A stretch of DNA of 64,000 nucleotides from Saccharothrix luteola. GTDB taxonomy: Bacteria > Actinomycetota > Actinomycetes > Mycobacteriales > Pseudonocardiaceae. Under the pieces are notes generated by a model. The model made no database searches and was not told where the DNA came from. It was given only the letters and a program-made list of their open reading frames with translations. The translations under genes were made by a program, and so were the position numbers. Location of the stretch: positions 1 through 64,000 of the forward strand of contig NZ_JAJHUO010000014.1 in the NCBI RefSeq assembly GCF_020859565.1, given 5' to 3'. Shown here piece by piece: positions 44,281-64,000 of the stretch; the first letter of the stretch is position 1; each line of letters starts with the position of its first letter.

Positions 44281-44717
44281 GGGCCGTCAATCGTGAATGT
44301 GCCACACGTCACTACCGACGTGCCGCGCCGCTACGCCCGAGTAACGTCAAACGACGCCAGACAAAGAAGGTTACGGCCATCTCGGAATCTCAACGAAAAT
44401 CCATCTGAACGGAGCAGGTAGATAATTCATACGCCCCCTGATGGACAGGCTACCGACACCCGCAAGCCGTTGACACGCGACTGCGAATAACCCTCGCGTA
44501 CTGCAGGTATTTACGAGACCACACGGTCCAAACCCGGCCGTTCGAGTGAATCCCGGAAGTGCTTCTTCCACCACGGAGTCACCCTCCCCTCAAAATGGGG
44601 AGTAGCCTTTCCGCAAATGCTCCGTTCGGCGGTCGCGACGATCTCCCGGTGACAGCCACCGTTGGGCCGCGCCCCGGTTACTCATTGACACTGTGGCTCA
44701 TTCTCAGAGGATCACGC
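44281..44717. other. Long AT-richer upstream region of the NRPS cluster
   Basis: About 440 bp with clearly lower G+C than the genes (for example 44370-44530) and no supported coding frame. A short hairpin (CTCCCC 44584-44589 with GGGGAG 44597-44602) lies 115 bp before the serine hydrolase gene. TTGACA occurs at 44474-44479 and at 44685-44690; the latter, with GAGGAT 16 nt on, could start a nearly leaderless transcript. This is the likely control region of the cluster. Confidence 0.5.
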
Positions 44718-45989
44718 ATGGACACCGACCGGATCTCCACTCGATTAGCGACGCTCGCCCGCGCCCACCTGGTGCCCGGCGCGCAGCTCGCCGTGCACCA
44801 CCAGGGACGCACGTGGACGCACGAGGTGGGCTTGGCCGCCGACGCGGCCGTGCCCATCGGCTCGATCACCAAGACGTTCACCGCGACCGTCGCCATGGCC
44901 CTGGTCTCGGACGGGGACCTGGACCTGGACGCGCCGCTGTCCGACCACCTGCCCGGGGTGGCGGCCGGCGAACTCACGCTGCGCCACTTGCTCAGCCACA
45001 CCGGCGGCCTGCCGTCGGACCCGGAGGACGTGCGCACGACGTCACTGCGCCACCACGTCCGGCAGGCGCTGCGCGAGCTGCACCCGCTGCACGAGCCCGG
45101 CGCGGGCTTCTCCTACTCCAACATCGGGTACTCCCTGATCGGCCACCTGATCGAGGTGGCGACCGGGATGACCTGGTCGGAGGCGGTGGAGGCGGTGCTG
45201 CTGCGCCCGCTCGGGGTGCGCGCCAGGTTCATCACGACCCCGGACGCCGACGTCGTCAGCGGCCACGCCGTCAACACCGCCACGGGCCGCGTGGTGCCGG
45301 TGGCGCAGTCGCTGACGCCGGTCGACGCGCCGGCCGGCGCCCTGGCCGTCAGCGCCGCGGAGCTGGTGACGTTCGGCCGGATGCTCGGCGGCGGCGCGCC
45401 GCACCTGATGGGCCCGGACGACCTCGCCCTCATGCGCGAGCCCGTGCGCCACGCGGAGCCGTTCGGCATGGCCGACGGCTGGGGCCTCGGCCTGGCGCTG
45501 TTCCAGCGCGACGGCGTCCGCTGGGTCGGCCACGACGGCACCGCCGACGGCACGTCGTGCCACCTGCGGATCAACCCGGCCGACGGCACCGCGGTCGCCC
45601 TGACGACCAACGGCAGCAGCGGCTGGGGCCTGTGGCGCGAGCTCGTGCCGGAATTGGCCGACGCGGGCCTGCCCGTGGCGGATTACGACGGAATGAGCGG
45701 GCTGCACCGCCGCATCGCCCCTCCGCCGGACTGCACCGGGCGCTTCCGCAACGGCGACGTCGAATACGCCGTGCGCGCCGTGGACCGGGAGCGCCTGGCC
45801 CTCACGGTGGACGGCGAGCCGTTCGCCGACCTGTCGTTGTTCGACGGGCTCGTGTTCGCGATGCGCGATTCCGACACCGGCGACACCAACCAGACGGGGC
45901 GTTTCCTGCGCGACCCGGGCGACGGCGGTATCCGCTGGATCCAGATCGGCGGCCGACTCGCCCGCAGGCAGGTCGCGAAAACGGGTTGA
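44718..45989 (+). CDS. Class C beta-lactamase-fold serine hydrolase, candidate PBP-type NRPS thioesterase
   Basis: The 423-residue protein starts at ATG 44718; the frame to 44559 upstream lacks resemblance. It has the serine beta-lactamase/PBP motifs: Ser49-x-x-Lys52 (GSITKTF), Tyr133-x-Asn135 (YSNIGY) and His272-Asp-Gly274 (VGHDGTADG). A ~90-residue lipocalin-like beta domain (from ~330) closes the protein. There is no signal peptide, unlike secreted lactamases. This two-domain layout and its place 66 nt before an epimerase-containing NRPS match SurE-type PBP-like thioesterases, which cyclise peptides at a D-residue. A cytoplasmic esterase or D-aminopeptidase is the alternative. Codon 10 is TTA, the rare bldA codon. 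Confidence 0.72.
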   Translation: MDTDRISTRLATLARAHLVPGAQLAVHHQGRTWTHEVGLAADAAVPIGSITKTFTATVAMALVSDGDLDLDAPLSDHLPGVAAGELTLRHLLSHTGGLPSDPEDVRTTSLRHHVRQALRELHPLHEPGAGFSYSNIGYSLIGHLIEVATGMTWSEAVEAVLLRPLGVRARFITTPDADVVSGHAVNTATGRVVPVAQSLTPVDAPAGALAVSAAELVTFGRMLGGGAPHLMGPDDLALMREPVRHAEPFGMADGWGLGLALFQRDGVRWVGHDGTADGTSCHLRINPADGTAVALTTNGSSGWGLWRELVPELADAGLPVADYDGMSGLHRRIAPPPDCTGRFRNGDVEYAVRAVDRERLALTVDGEPFADLSLFDGLVFAMRDSDTGDTNQTGRFLRDPGDGGIRWIQIGGRLARRQVAKTG

Positions 45990-46055: not shown

Positions 46056-49000
46056 ATGACGCACGCCCGCACACTGCCGGAATTGATCGCCGCGCAGGCG
46101 CTGCGCACTCCCGACGCACCCGCGGTCATATCGGCCGAAGGTGTGGTCTGCTACCGGGAACTCGACGAACGCGCGAACCGACTCGCGCACCTGCTCCTCG
46201 CCGAGGGGGCGCGGCGGGAGCACGTGGTGGCGGTGGCCATGCCGCGCTCGGTGGACAACGTGGTGGCGCGGCTCGCGGTGCTGAAGACCGGCGCCGCGTA
46301 CCTGCCGATCGACCCGGACTACCCGGCCGACCGGATCGCGTTCATGGTCTCCGACGCCGAGCCGCTGCTGGTGCTCTCCGACCTGCGGGACCTCACGGAC
46401 CGGCACGACGACGGCCGGCCGCGGCCGGCCGACCAACCCGTCACCGCGCCCGACGTCGCGATCCGGCCGGAGGACCCGGCGTACGTGATCTACACGTCCG
46501 GGTCGACCGGCCGCCCGAAGGGCGTCGTGGTGCCGCACCGGGGTTTACCGGCGTTCTCCGCCGCCGAGGTGGCCCACTTCGACGTGCGCCCGGGCGACCG
46601 GGTCCTCCAATTCTCCTCACCCAGCTTCGACGCCTCGGTGCTGGAGCTGTGCATGGCCCTGCCCGCCGGCGCGGCGCTCGTGGTGCCGCCGCCCGGACCG
46701 CTGCTCGGCGACCAGCTCGCCGAGGTGATCGGCACGTTCGGCGTGACCCACGCGCTGATCCCACCGGTCGCGCTGGCCACCGTGCCCGACGTCGAGCTGC
46801 CGACGTTCCGCACCCTGATCGTCGGCGGTGACGCCTGCCCGCCCGACCTGGTGGCGAAGTGGGCCCCCGGGCGCCGCATGATCAACGCCTACGGGCCGAC
46901 CGAGTCCACCGTGGTCACGTCGTGGAGCGAGCCGCTCGAGCCGGGCGGCACGCCGCCCATCGGCCACCCCATCCCCGGCACCGAGGTCCGCGTGCTGGAC
47001 GACGACCTTCGCCCCGCCCCCGAGGGCGAGCTGTACGTCACCGGCGTCGGCCTGGCCCGGGGCTACCTCCGCCGGCCGGGGCTGACCGCGCAGCGGTTCC
47101 TGCCCGACCCGTTCGGCGAGCCCGGCGCCCGCATGTACCGCACCGGTGACGTCGTCCGCACCCGTGCCGACGGCCAGCTGGAGTTCGTCGGCCGGGCCGA
47201 CCACCAGGTGAAGATCCGGGGCTTCCGGGTCGAGCCCGGCGAGATCGAGGCGCTGCTGCGGCAGCGGCCCGGCGTGGAGCACGCGGTCGTCGTCGCGCGC
47301 GGCGAGCCGAAACGGCTGGTGGCGTACGTGGTCGGCGACACCGCGGGTCTGCGGGAGCACCTGGTCGACAGACTGCCCGACTACCTGGTGCCTTCGGCGT
47401 TCGTCGAGCTGGAAGCGTTCCCGCTGACGCCCAACGGGAAGCTGGACCGGGACGCGCTGCCCGAGCCGGTCGTCGGCGACGTCCCGGAGGACCACGTCGA
47501 GCCGCGCACCGCGGCCGAGCGCCGCGTCGCCGCGGTGTGGTCGGACGTGCTCGGCGTGCCCCGGGTCGGCGCGCACGACGACTTCTTCGCCCTCGGCGGC
47601 GACTCGATCCTGGCCGTGCGGGCGCTGTCGCGGCTCGGCGGGCTGCCGGTGCGGGCGATGTTCGACCACCGCACGGTCGCCGCGCTCGCCGACGCCCTGC
47701 CCGACCAGGACGGCGCGCCGATCCCCCGCGTGCCCCGGGTCAAGCCGCTGCCCCTCTCCTCAGCCCAGCGCCGCCTGTTCTCCCTGGACGGCACGGCCGA
47801 GCAGAACACCGCCGTGGGCATCCGGCTCACCGGTCCGCTGGACGTGCCTCGTCTCGCCGAGGCGCTCGACGCGCTGGCCTGCCGGCACGACGCGCTGCGC
47901 ACGACGTTCGACGTGGTCGGCGACGAGCCGGTGCAGGTCGTCGCGCCGCACGGCACGATCCCGCTGCGCGTGCTGCCCGCACCGGGCGCAACCCAGCCGG
48001 CCGCGACCGAGCTCGATCCGACAGACCTCGGCCTGGACGAGCCGTTCGACCTGCGGCGCGGCCCGCTCACCCGCGCCGTGCTCAGCCCCCTCGGCCCGGA
48101 CGAGCACCTGCTGACCCTCGTCCAGCACCACATCATCACCGACGGCTGGTCGGTGCAGGTGCTGCTGACCGAACTGGCCGAGCTCTACGCGGGCAACCGG
48201 CCGGCCGAGCCTCCCGTGCAGTACCCCGACTTCACCGCCTGGGACCGGTCGAGGCCCGAGGGCGACCCGGCCTACTGGCGAGACCGGCTCGCCGGCATCG
48301 AGGCGCTCGACCTGCCCACCGACCGGCCCCGGCCACCGCTGCGCACCACGTCCGGCTCGGTCCTGCGGCGTCCGCTGCCCGCCGACCTGGTCCGCCGGCT
48401 GGCGGCCGTGGGCCGCGCGCACGACGCCACCTTGTTCATGACGCTCACCGCCGCCGTGCAGGTGGTGCTGTCCGCACGCAGCCGGCAGCGCGACATCGCC
48501 GTGGGCACGGTCAGCTCCGGCCGCGACCGCGCCGACCTGGAACGCGCGGTCGGGTTCTTCGTCCGCACGCTCGTGCTGCGCTCGTGGGTCGACCCGGACC
48601 TGCCGTTCACCGCGTTCCTGGACCAGGTGCGGGACACGGCGCTGGAGGCCTTCGCGCACGACGACGTGCCGTTCGACCGGGTGGTGGAGGAGGTCCGGCC
48701 CGACCCGGACCCCGGCCGCACGCCCCTGGTGCAGGCCGTCGTGGCCCTGCACCAGCCGCTGCTGCCCGGCACCGCGTTCGGCGAGCTGACCGCGGCCGAG
48801 CACGACCTCCCGCGCCCGGTGGCCCGGTTCGACCTGGTGGTGGAGTTCTGGCCGCGCGGCGACGACCTCGCGCTGACCGTCGAGTACAACACCGACCTGT
48901 TCGACGCCACCACGATCGAATCGCTGACCGACGACCTGGACGCGTTGCTGCGCCTGGTCGTGGACGACCCGGACCGCCCGCTGCACGACCTGACCGAGTT

Positions 49001-52000
49001 GGACTTCCCGCCGGACGACACCGTGCGGATCCGGGGCTTCCGGGTCGACCTCGCCGAGGTCGAGCAGGCGATCCGGCGGCACCACGAGGTGACCGACGCG
49101 GCCGTGGTCGTGGCCGACAAACGACTCGTCGCCTACGTCACGCCCCCGGTGAACCCCTCGGCGCTGCAAGGGTTCCTCGGCCAGGTGCTGCCCGCGCACG
49201 CCGTGCCCGCCACGTTCGTCGGCCTCGACCACCTCGACCGGGACTCGCTGCCCGCACCCCCGGACGAACGCGCCGAAGCCCGCTACGTCGCACCCCGCAC
49301 GCCCGTCGAAGCCGTGCTGGCGGACGTGTTCGCCGAAGTGCTCGGCGCGGCCCGGGTCGGCGTCCGGGACAACTTCTTCGCCCTCGGCGGCGACTCGATC
49401 CTGGGCATCCAGGTGGTCACCCGCGCCCGCCGCGCCGGCCTGGTGCTGACCTCGCGGGACATCTTCGCGCACCAGACCATCGCCGCGATCGCGCCGCACG
49501 TCACCCGCGACCTGCCGCCCACCGCCGACCAGGGCGCGGTGACCGGCGAGGCGCCGCTCACCCCGATCCAGCGCTGGTTCCTCGACGGCCACGCCGTGCG
49601 GCCGGAGCACTTCGACCAGTCCGTCGTCGTCGACCTCGACCCCGACCTCGACGTGCCCGCGCTGCGCACCGCCCTCACCGCGCTGGTCGAGCACCACGAC
49701 GCGCTGCGCACCCGGTTCGAGGGCGACCGCCAGGTGGTCGGACCCGTCACGGGTGCCGACCCGTTGGCGCTGGACCACTTCGACCTCACCCGCGGGCCGC
49801 TGCTGCGGGCCGAGGTCCTCGACGGCGGGTCGGTCCGGCTGACCGCGCACCACCTCGTCGTCGACGGCGTGTCGTGGCGCGTGCTGGTCGAGGACCTGAC
49901 CACCGCCTACCGCCAGGCCCGCGCCGGCGAGACCGTCCGCGTCGGCCGCAAGACGACGTCGTTCCGCGACTGGGCGATCCGGCTCGCCGACCACGCCGCG
50001 CACGGCTTCGACGCCGAACTCGCCCACTGGACGGCCGTGGCCGCCACCCCGACCGGCATCCCGGTGGACCGGACCGGCCCGAACACGGTCGGCTCGCAGC
50101 GCGAGGTCACCGTGCGGCTCACCGCGAGCGAGACCGACGCCCTGCTGCGCGACGTGCCCGGCGTGTACCGCACGCAGGTCAACGACGTGCTGCTGACCGC
50201 GCTGGGCCGGGTGCTGGCCGACTGGACCGGCCGGTCGCGCGTGCTGGTCGACCTGGAGGGCCACGGCCGCGAGGAGCTGTTCGCCGACGTCGACCTGTCC
50301 CGCACGGTCGGCTGGTTCACCACCGTCTTCCCCGTCGCGCTCGACCTGCCCGCAGGCGACTGGGGTGACGCGCTCAAGTCCGTGAAGGAGCAGCTGCGGG
50401 CCGTGCCCGGACGCGGCCTCGGCTACGGCGCGCTGCGCCACCTGGCCCGCACCGCGCCCGCCTGCGACCCCCGGGTCTCGTTCAACTACCTGGGCCGGTT
50501 CGACGCCGACCAGCGCGACCTGGAGCTGTCCGCCGACCCGCGCGCGCCGCGCCCGCACCTGCTCGACGTGGTCGGCCAGGTGCGCGGCGACCGGCTGGAG
50601 TTCACCTTCCACTACAGCGAGCACGCCCACGACCGGGACACCGTCGCCCACCTCGCCGACGGGTTCGCCGCCGCGCTGCGCGGCATCGTGGCGCACTGCG
50701 CCGAGCCGGGCACGGGTGGCCGCACGCCGTCGGACTTCCCGCTGGCGCGCCTCACCCAGGCCGAGGTGGACCTGATCACCGGCGAGGACGCCTACCCGCT
50801 CACCCCGATGCAGGCGGGCATGGTGTTCCACGGCCTGGGCGACAAGGGCGTGTACTTCCAGCAGACCACGTTCGTCGTGGACGGCGTGACCGACTCGGCC
50901 GCGTTCGCCGCCGCCTGGCAGCGGGTGGTCGACCGGACGCCCGTGCTGCGCAGCAGCGTGCTGTGGGAGGGCGTGCGGCAGCCGTTGCAGGTCGTGCACG
51001 AGCACGTCCGGGTGCCGTTCACGTTCCTGGACTGGAGCAGGCTCGACGAGGAGGCCCGCGCCGGGCGGCTGCGCGACCTGCTGGCCGAGGACCGGGCCGA
51101 GGGCATCGACCTGACCGCGCCGCCGTTGATGCGGGTCGCGATCGCCCGCCTGTCCCCGACCAGCGTCCAGGTGCTGTGGACGTTCCACCACGTGCTGCTG
51201 GACGGCTGGAGCGTCTTCCACGTGCTGTCCGACGTGCTCGGCGAACCGGCCGAGCGGCGGCCGTTCCGCGACTACGTGGCCTGGACCGCCGAGCAGGACG
51301 AGGCCGCCGCCCAGGCGCACTGGCGGCGGGTGCTGGCCGGGTTCGACTCGCCCACGCCGCTGCCCGCCGACCGCCCGGCCGAGCACGGCACGTCGTCGCA
51401 GCGGCTCGAGGTCGAGCTGACCGACGACGAGTCCGCGTCGCTGTACGAGTTCGCCCGCCGGCACCGCGTCACGCCGAGCGCGATCGTGCAGGGCGCGTGG
51501 GCGCTGCTGCTGGCCCGGTCCGCCGGCCGGCGTGACGTCTGCTTCGGCGCGACGGTGTCCGGCCGGCCCGCGGAGCTGCCCGGCGTGGACGCGATCACCG
51601 GCATCTTCATCAACACCCTGCCGGTGCGGGTCCGGGTCGACGGCGCGACGCCCGTGGCCGACTGGTTGCGCGCGTTGCAGGACGCCCAGGTCGAGTCGCG
51701 GCGGTTCGAGCACGTGCCGCTGGCCGACATCCAGGCGTGGAGCGAGGTCGAGCGCGGCACCAGCCTGTTCGACAGCGCGGTGGTGTTCGAGAACTACCCG
51801 GCCGACCTGGCCGAGGGCATGGGCCTGCGGGACCTGGCCGCGGTCGAGACCACGAGCTTCCCGCTCAGCGCCACCGTCTACCCGGCCGCACGGCTCGGCG
51901 TGCTGCTGGGTTACGAGCCCGCGATGTTCGACCGCGCCACGGTGGCCCGGCTCGGCGACCGGCTGCGCAGGCTGCTGGTCGGCCTGGTCGCCGACCCGGA

Positions 52001-53765
52001 CCGGCCGATCGCCGACGTGCCGTGGCTGGCCGAGGACGAGATCCGCCAGGTGATCGTGGACTGGAACGGCACGGCGGTCGGCGAGCCCACGGCCACGATC
52101 CCCGAGCTGTTCGCCGCCCAGGCCGCCCGCACGCCGGACGCCGTCGCGGTGACGTGCGAGGGCGGGCGGTTGACCTACCGCGAGCTGGACGAGCGCGCGA
52201 ACCGCCTCGCCCACCACCTCGTCGCGCGCGGCGCGGGACCGGAGGCGGTGGTGGCGTTGACGTTCCCGCGCTCGATCGACCTCGTCGTCGCCGTGCTGGG
52301 CGTGCTGAAGTCGGGCGCGGCCTACCTGCCGCTGGACTCCTCGTCACCGGCCGACCGCATCTCGCACATCCTCGCCGACGCCCGTCCCGTGCTCAGGTTG
52401 GACCGGCTGCCGGACCTCTCCGACCAGCCCGCCACGGACCCGAAGGCGCCCGTGCGGCCGGACAACGCCGCGTACGTGATCTACACGTCCGGCTCGACCG
52501 GCCGGCCCAAGGGCGTCGTCGTCCCGCACTCGAACGTGGTCCGGCTGTTCTCCCGGACCGACCACTGGTTCGGCTTCGGACCCGACGACGTGTGGACCCT
52601 CTTCCACAGCTACGCCTTCGACTTCTCCGTCTGGGAACTGTGGGGCCCGCTCCTGCACGGCGGCCGACTCGTCGTCGTGCCCTACGAGACCTCGCGATCA
52701 CCACGCGACTTCGCCCGGCTCATCGCCGACGAGGGCGTGACTGTGCTCAACCAGACGCCATCGGCGTTCTACGAGCTGCTGGAGCACGCGCCCGACCTCG
52801 CCGTCCGGTACGTGATCTTCGGCGGTGAAGCCCTCGACGTGCGCAAACTCTCCCGGTGGCACGGGTCCGGCGCGTTGATCAACATGTACGGGATCACCGA
52901 GACCACCGTCCACGTCACCTGGACGCACGCCGACGGCTCGATCGGCGTGCCCATCCCCGACCTGCGGGTCTACGTGCTCGACGACGACCTCAACCCCGTG
53001 CCGCCTCACGTGCCGGGCGAGATGTACGTGGCCGGGCCGGGCCTGGCGCGCGGCTACCTCGACCGGCCCGGCCTGACCGCGTCGCGGTTCGTCGCGGACC
53101 CGTTCGGCCCACCCGGTTCCCGCATGTACCGCAGCGGGGACCTGGCCCGGTGGGAGGACGGCGCGCTGCACTACTTGGGCCGCGCGGACCAGCAGGTGAA
53201 GATCCGCGGGTTCCGGATCGAGCTCGGCGAGGTGGAATCGGCGCTCGCCGCGCATCCTGCCGTCGCCCAGGTCGTTGTAGTGGCGAACGAACAACGCTTG
53301 GTGGCGTACTTCGTGCCGGACAAGCCGACTACGGCGTCGGAGCTGCGCGACCACACGGCCGAGGTCCTGCCCGACCACATGGTGCCCGCGGCGTTCGTCG
53401 CACTGGAAAGCCTGCCGTTGACCGTGAACGGCAAGCTCGACCGCGTCGCGCTCCCCGCGCCCGAGCGCGACGCGGTCACGTCCTCCGCCTACGTGGCCCC
53501 CCGCACCGAGACCGAGGACGCGATCGCCGCCATCTGGGCGGACGTGCTCGGCGTCGGCCGCGTCGGGGTCGAGGACAGCTTCTTCACCCTGGGCGGCGAC
53601 TCGATCCGCAGCCTGCACATCACGTCCCGGACCAAGGCGGCGTTCGGCGTCGACCTGTCCCCACGCGACGTCCTCACCGCGCGCACCGTGTCCGCCCTGG
53701 CCGACCTGGTCGAGGAACTGGTGCTCGCGGACCTCGAAGCCCTCGCTGCCGACACGGAGGCGTGA
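46056..53765 (+). CDS. Nonribosomal peptide synthetase 1: A-T / C-(A remnant)-T-E / C-A-T
   Basis: The 2569-residue enzyme starts at ATG 46056. Module 1 is A1 (7-470) and T1 (Ser517), with no starter C domain. Module 2 has C2 (HHIITDG, 691-697), a ~80-residue A-domain stump (990-1070) that begins at the A8 motif ([14 protein letters not shown]) and lacks A1-A7 and the A10 lysine, T2 (Ser1114), and E2 (HHLVVDG, 1265-1271; LEGHGRE). Module 3 has a DCL-type C3 (HHVLLDG, 1711-1717), A3 (2015-2470) and T3 (Ser2516). The A3 pocket reads D-F-W-N-I-G-M-V-H-K, the exact threonine code. A1 reads D-A-L-L-I-G-A-V-V-K, nearest to tyrosine or hydrophobic codes and uncertain. An acidic helical tail may dock to NRPS2, whose ATG lies 6 nt after the stop. 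Codon 164 is TTA. Confidence 0.93.
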
Positions 53766-53771
53766 CCCGTC

Positions 53772-64000
<10,229 letters not shown>

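Follow-up and report, generated by a model that had tools for sequence, protein, structure and literature searches.

How is the carrier domain of a nonribosomal peptide synthetase (NRPS) module charged when the adenylation (A) domain of that module has been reduced to a stump? A domains set the product of these assembly lines, and modules without one break the collinear prediction of the product. The question is raised by a gene cluster of Saccharothrix luteola (assembly GCF_020859565.1, 10.3 Mb), which begins in the first 64 kb of contig C6 (NZ_JAJHUO010000014.1, positions 1 to 64,000), the stretch that was analysed as a whole and is called here the window. Its first synthetase gene, NRPS1 (46056..53765, on the forward strand like the other window features given below), encodes 2569 aa which, from the open reading frame (ORF), Pfam and motif reading, are ordered A1-T1-C2-A2*-T2-E2-C3-A3-T3, where C, T and E are condensation, carrier (thiolation) and epimerization domains and A2* is the stump. 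Pfam finds two AMP-binding cores in this ORF (A1 and A3) versus three carrier domains and, together with the next gene, NRPS2, the line counts eight carriers and seven complete A domains. We propose that A2* is a conserved non-catalytic remnant in a working C-A*-T-E module, whose carrier T2 would be charged in-line, most likely by A1, and we give this reading a probability of about 0.5.

With 29 related clusters that carry the stump, the loss of A3 in one group of them and no partner A domain in the flanks scanned, this is a tractable bacterial system. It bears on how one A domain serves several carriers, on why the C-terminal subdomain of a lost A domain is kept, and on NRPS engineering by A-domain sharing.

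The adenylation remnant of module 2

After the condensation domain C2 (47748..48995; Pfam match over residues 565-980, HHIITDGW motif intact), a 12-residue stretch runs in frame into a 14-residue A8 motif (residues 990-1003), from position 49023. This opens about 80 residues of the A-domain C-terminal subdomain (Asub), followed by T2 (49281..49505, boundaries approximate, with an intact GGDS motif whose serine codon lies at about 49395) and by E2 (49557..50855, boundaries approximate, with its 10-residue motif intact). The stump (49023..49268) consists of the Asub only, with the A8 motif kept and the A10 PLTPNGK loop deleted. It sits between C2 and T2 as the first-pass annotation had described it, with coordinates that prove right within a few bases.

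What is gone from A2* is the A core together with the A10 lysine loop, i.e., about 390 residues. The absence of both the core and the catalytic lysine, already reported from the single locus, extends to the 29 clusters described below. Indeed, the core motif A3 (distinct from the domain of that name) is missing from module 2 in 29/29 clusters, and the A10 lysine is found in none of the 29 A2* versus 198/198 of the other A subdomains aligned, an alignment that leaves out two intact subdomains of genome G007. The spacing between the C2 histidine and the T2 serine is 415-457 aa in all 29 clusters versus 787-835 aa between C6 and T6 (28 measured), a median deficit of 388 aa.

The first-pass annotation had proposed to compare the remnant with complete A domains and to model it. 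The stump matches the Pfam family AMP-binding_C (PF13193) with an E-value of 2.8e-8, over positions 1-70 of the 76 of the profile, and AlphaFold folds it confidently as a normal Asub, so that a folded A C-terminal subdomain has been kept. The joint model of C2-A2*-T2 is poor (mean predicted local distance difference test score, pLDDT, of 59, T2 being worst), and a structure search with this whole model matched mainly C domains. Judged by the motifs that it lacks, A2* is unable to adenylate, and module 2 reads as an NRPS module with an Asub-only A* of the kutzneride and glidonin kind, its core gone, its Asub folded and its C, T and E motifs intact.

Such a join could also come from an assembly artefact, i.e., a collapsed repeat hiding the A core, a concern voiced by the first-pass annotation itself. 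NRPS genes are repetitive, and the source assembly is rated 8.8% contaminated. However, the same continuous join is present in 29/29 assemblies, which span three genus groups and include several single-contig genomes. This excludes the collapsed repeat and leaves an artefact with a practically negligible probability.

Conservation and selection across three genus groups

The truncated junction is not restricted to the source genome. In the GTDB genome collection, where the best 80 matches were listed, it was found in 15/15 loci (12 Saccharothrix, two Allokutzneria and one Lentzea), these being the best 15 of at least 79 loci. In a family search, 30 of the 390 genomes pass 1e-49 and 29 of them carry the cluster: 22 Saccharothrix, four of the Lentzea group and three of the Allokutzneria group, the genus being inferred from group labels for part of them. 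Judging by coordinates, G255, G089 and G090 duplicate the genomes G006, G008 and G007. The thirtieth match, G198, was dropped, as it holds an ordinary module with intact A motifs. The cluster is carried by 22 of the 25 Saccharothrix genomes, source genome included, and rule-based predictions for it in these genomes may misread position 2. All 29 clusters lack the A2 core and its A10 loop and retain the T2 serine. Since the 29 stumps form one clade (support 0.996), a single truncation that preceded the divergence of these clusters is most likely.

The rest of the module has been preserved. The motifs of C2, T2, E2 and C3 are intact in 29/29 clusters, and the intact carrier serine and epimerase motifs of module 2, first noted in the window, are thus a constant of the family. 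The C2 HHxxxDG motif was recovered 26 times by motif search and three times as the variant HHIITDGR. Elsewhere in the line, the motif search missed one E motif each in G016 and G017 (E6) and in G032 (E4), where the spacing is normal. C3 (50890..52080, boundaries approximate) belongs to the class typical after E domains. Indeed, in the C-domain tree, which like one E tree was built on all 29 clusters (a second E tree and the T, C and Asub trees being built on 15 of them), C3, C5 and C7 form one clade with a support of 1.0, apart from C2, C4, C6 and C8.

We also compared the ratio of nonsynonymous to synonymous substitution rates (dN/dS, medians over the 22 Saccharothrix) between modules. For the stump it is 0.371, within the range of the seven intact Asubs (0.236-0.428). 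T2, with 0.194, is level with T3 (0.193) and lower than the other six T domains, and E2 (0.389) stands next to E4 (0.374) and E6 (0.367). By amino-acid identity, T2 is the most conserved T domain in Saccharothrix (mean of 0.905 versus 0.795-0.875), and between genera its identity is 0.752 versus 0.578-0.700 for the others. A2*, T2 and E2 are under purifying selection. This constraint, the intact motifs and the class of C3 together argue that module 2 is kept like a working, epimerising module. The stump is real and conserved and, as related species share it, module 2 is probably functional.

These observations bear on two other views of the module. It could be dead and skipped, T2 being never loaded and the product being a heptapeptide, and the inability of A2 to adenylate speaks for it. 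However, the C2, T2 and E2 motifs are intact in 29/29 clusters under a constraint roughly equal to or above that of complete modules, C3 retains the class typical after E domains, and decay would be expected across the divergence of three genera; skipping is thus quite improbable. A decaying module was rejected on the same selection and conservation. The first-pass annotation had also seen in the stump an evolutionary intermediate towards an A-less module. This does not fit a stump that forms one clade in 29/29 clusters, is shared by three genus groups and is under purifying selection, and A2* therefore looks like a stable state.

The probable source of a residue on T2

If A2* cannot adenylate, T2 needs another A domain or is skipped, and this alternative, drawn by the first-pass annotation, is supported. 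Among the domains of the line, the specificity codes were read at the standard code positions by alignment to the Thr domain. A1 (46092..47465, end approximate; code DALLIGAVV in the window), the most likely donor of T2, shares with A8 the code DALL[IV]GAVV in 29/29 clusters; our literature search found no paper printing this code from which to name its substrate. A4 and A6 carry a DT.D.G.[VI]D code in 29/29 clusters, with an uncertain third residue, their motif being one residue shorter. On the contrary, the A3 and A7 codes vary by species between a Thr type, DVFSIAMVH and DALLVGAVV, with a Ser-like code in the A3 of Lentzea-group clusters, as though recombination had exchanged cores. In the window, A3 (52092..53465) has the code DFWNIGMVH, which is of the threonine type according to PMC12283262. 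In the three Allokutzneria-group clusters (L047, L049 and G088), A3 is entirely lost and C3 runs straight into T3; these lines, with six A domains for eight carriers, amount to a natural experiment on the loss of A domains. Should residue 2 not differ between clusters, the donor would be of the A1/A8 or the A4/A6 type. A3, which had been listed among the candidate donors, is unlikely to be one, because its code varies by species and because it is absent from 3/3 Allokutzneria-group clusters.

The order A1-T1-C2-A2*-T2 in one polypeptide, with T1 (47490..47714, boundaries approximate, GGDSI motif), places A1-T1 directly upstream of the truncated module, as in the SidD type. A1 would load T1 and, on the same polypeptide, the T2 of the next module downstream. 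C2 would then join residues 1 and 2, E2 would convert residue 2 to its D form, and C3, of the post-epimerase class, would hand the dipeptide on. The stump would probably be retained because a folded Asub maintains the spacing and the contacts needed by T2. We infer the loading of T2, A1 as its donor, the product and the role of the stump from sequence.

The SidD/Nps6 synthetases offer a direct precedent for this mechanism. There, module 2 has a truncated A domain (dA) and SidD A1 loads both T1 and T2 (PMC10192304). In both systems an A1-T1 unit is followed by a module whose A domain lost its N-terminal part. However, SidD is fungal and iterative and makes a hydroxamate siderophore, its dA lacks about 290 residues, so that more is left of it than of A2*, and the Saccharothrix module 2 has an E domain, unlike SidD; the likeness would be one of mechanism, not of descent. 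Capreomycin, whose producer is a Saccharothrix, offers a second direct precedent: CmnA-A1 loads the A-less CmnI (PMC12400406), so that the T domain of a module lacking an A domain is charged by the one of module 1 within a single assembly line. The available text, though, calls CmnI A-less and mentions no A remnant, and CmnA and CmnI are separate proteins. WS9326A is another actinobacterial NRPS, in which an A-less C-T unit is served by two free-standing A domains encoded in the cluster (PMC7539972); these act in trans, and the available text describes no remnant. Two further candidates, the A-less C-T-TE module of bonsecamin (PMC8400726; TE, thioesterase) and the degenerate A domains of fungal ferrichrome synthetases (PMC2644324), provided no closer case in the text at hand.

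The A* of the kutzneride line is non-functional and is called critical for loading by the free-standing KtzN (PMC10587159). We found a putatively kutzneride-like region with a halogenase pair in a Kutzneria-group genome (G402/L227): the end of a C domain is followed by A*-T-E, with an A ORF and an A-T ORF within the 100 kb covered. Its A* resembles ours in being what is left of an Asub, with no A10 lysine, ahead of T and E domains. However, A8 is lost from it and the A10 loop is kept, with Thr in place of Lys, the opposite of A2*, and the two stumps apparently arose independently. Module 13 of the glidonin synthetase GdnB also has an Asub-only A*, with core and specificity code absent, a kind that the authors call rare apart from kutzneride (PMC10587159). 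It differs in its Burkholderiales origin and in terminating its line, with TE domains and no E domain listed in the available text. The A* kind is thus already known. What would be new, as far as our searches reach, is a bacterial, in-line and E-containing case that extends over three genus groups and for which no dedicated donor was found; a literature search on the Saccharothrix cluster, its codes and other A stumps, poor in subscription journals, brought up no paper that we recognised as describing this cluster.

A separate A-domain partner was looked for around and outside the cluster. In the contig of the window, no A-domain motif was found 46 kb upstream or 51 kb downstream of NRPS1/NRPS2, and the next AMP-binding match outside these genes lies beyond 236 kb. 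In 15 upstream and six downstream flanks of relatives, no further A-domain motif was found either; the two hits of the whole scan were the A1 and A8 of the cluster itself. Hence, the free-standing A domain that the first-pass annotation suggested downstream was not found by motif scan in either set of flanks. Among unlinked loci, ten A-bearing ORFs of less than 900 aa from four cluster-bearing genomes are at most 42% identical to each other; they represent one ORF for each of ten loci, mostly the most A1-like, with the weaker, mostly ligase-like ORFs and a second ORF of L207 outside the comparison. In one Saccharothrix-Allokutzneria pair, where the loci matching A1 at 1e-20 or better were compared (18 loci versus 22 in 20 stretches), three of the 18 non-cluster A-like loci have a match of at least 60%; in the same pair, the cluster domains A1, A4, A5, A6 and A8 show 61-71% identity. 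Two of the three loci are only about 34% identical to A1, and we take them for acyl-CoA ligases. The third (G009:C1:153244-154653) encodes an A-T protein of about 1300 aa with membrane and repeat segments, 84% identical over its A domain. It is present in 18/22 cluster-bearing and 0/3 cluster-lacking Saccharothrix, a co-occurrence that may come from shared descent, and was not found at E<=1e-120 in the other four cluster-bearing genomes. This absence argues against it as the T2 partner, and it was dropped as a universal one. In this partial search, no unlinked A domain common to every cluster-bearing Saccharothrix was found.

Several observations weigh against charging by A1 within a constrained module 2. 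The median dN of the stump (0.186) is the highest of the eight Asubs and its dN/dS the second highest. A8 shares the A1 code and the code type of A4/A6 does not vary either, so the donor could also sit in NRPS2. C2 groups with C4 in the 15-cluster tree (0.886), and in Saccharothrix the domains most similar to the stump and to T2 are those of module 4, which speaks against descent from an A1-type module; the Asub tree leaves the stump unplaced. In the kutzneride precedent the A domain is free-standing (PMC10587159), and unlinked donors were searched only in part. The ancestry of A2 is hardly clearer. E2 and E8 form a group with a support of 1.0, and T2 is weakly joined to T8 (0.81, 15-cluster tree), which points to the A1/A8 type, while the grouping of C2 with C4 points the other way, and in the 29-cluster tree C2 falls with C8 and C6; these trees give conflicting hints and weak evidence.

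The charging of T2 across proteins, by A8 or by A4 or A6 of NRPS2, is on this account a serious though unlikely alternative. It would resemble CmnA-A1, which loads the T domain of a separate protein (PMC12400406), and it draws on the shared or invariant codes over the 29 clusters, on the grouping of E2 and, weakly, T2 with module 8, and on the identity of T2, which is highest with T4 in Saccharothrix and Lentzea and, in Allokutzneria, with T8. Against it, A1 is nearer, on the same chain and one module upstream, which is the SidD/SidC geometry (PMC10192304). A less probable donor is an A domain encoded separately and away from the cluster, which would dock on A2* in the manner described for KtzN and the kutzneride A*. 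The critical role reported for the kutzneride A* in KtzN-mediated transfer (PMC10587159), the A ORF and A-T ORF accompanying the A*-T-E module of the Kutzneria-group region and the biased occurrence of the 1300-aa protein speak for it. The scanned flanks, all free of any further A-domain motif, the low identity among the ten small ORFs and the four cluster-bearing genomes in which the 1300-aa protein was not found speak against it. T2 might also carry no amino acid of its own and serve another transfer, as perhaps does the terminal module of glidonin, where module 13 reportedly attaches putrescine. The GdnB module 13 has an Asub-only A* whose function is left open, and the title and abstract of the glidonin paper report a C-terminal putrescine (PMC10587159). 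However, the glidonin module ends its line, with TE domains and without a listed E domain, while here an E domain and a post-E-class C domain come next, and we hold this option to be very improbable.

A last possibility concerns the stump itself rather than the identity of the donor. The A8 motif serves the thiolation half-reaction and the A10 lysine the adenylation half-reaction. A2* could hence be half an adenylation domain, its A8 face kept for thiolation and its A10 lysine lost, which would complete the T2 thiolation site together with A1 or another core bearing the aminoacyl-AMP. In the A8 face of the stump, six of eight columns are at least 96% conserved versus 23 of 78 over the stump (P=0.007). 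The result depends on the threshold (P of 0.11 at 100%, 0.007 at 96% and 0.0145 at 90%), and the intact A8 faces give, at 96%, P values of 0.08 (S1), 0.28 (S4), 0.15 (S6) and 0.017 (S8), so that a selective retention of the A8 face in the stump is suggestive only. We regard this half-domain role as rather doubtful. If true, two C-terminal subdomains of a bacterial NRPS would share one catalytic core, in a division of labour that is both stable and widespread.

Gene cluster layout and predicted product

The core cluster is made of NRPS1, NRPS2 and a gene encoding a penicillin-binding protein (PBP)-type thioesterase, a stand-alone head-to-tail cyclase. The latter (44559..45989, the true start may be further in) matches the Pfam family Beta-lactamase at 7.6e-57. 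Its best PDB matches are the Ulm16 PBP cyclase (8fek, 3.1e-64) and SurE (6ksu, 1.2e-63), the next one being at 4.1e-25, and by this comparison it is related to the characterised PBP-type TEs SurE and Ulm16. A homologue lies directly 5' of NRPS1 in 15/15 loci (L035-L049). NRPS2 (53772..64000 in the window, continuing to contig position 72467) encodes 6231 aa which, by motif reading, are ordered C4A4T4E4-C5A5T5-C6A6T6E6-C7A7T7-C8A8T8E8; it ends with E8, and no TE domain was seen in it. The A5 code is DAYWWGGTF in 4/29 clusters.

Given the E domains at modules 2, 4, 6 and 8, we predict an octapeptide in which L and D residues strictly alternate and which the PBP-type cyclase would close head to tail. 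If A1 donates, the residue at position 2 is predicted to be the same as at position 1. PBP-type TEs link an L residue at the N-terminus to a D residue at the C-terminus (PMC11735501), and the line fits this rule, with no fused TE, no E domain in module 1 and a terminal E8, the L and D configurations being predicted from the domains. Such an alternating octapeptide, if real, would be of separate chemical interest.

An MbtH gene lies outside the window, about 1.2 kb past the end of NRPS2 (match at contig C6 73,681-73,818). It is present in 12/29 clusters, was not seen in the available flanks of the three Allokutzneria-group clusters, and in 14 clusters the downstream sequence is too short to tell. 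As for the source assembly, the contig pairs C8/C26, C39/C45 and C5/C15 give identical A-domain scores, which suggests duplicated contigs, in line with the contamination value of 8.8%.

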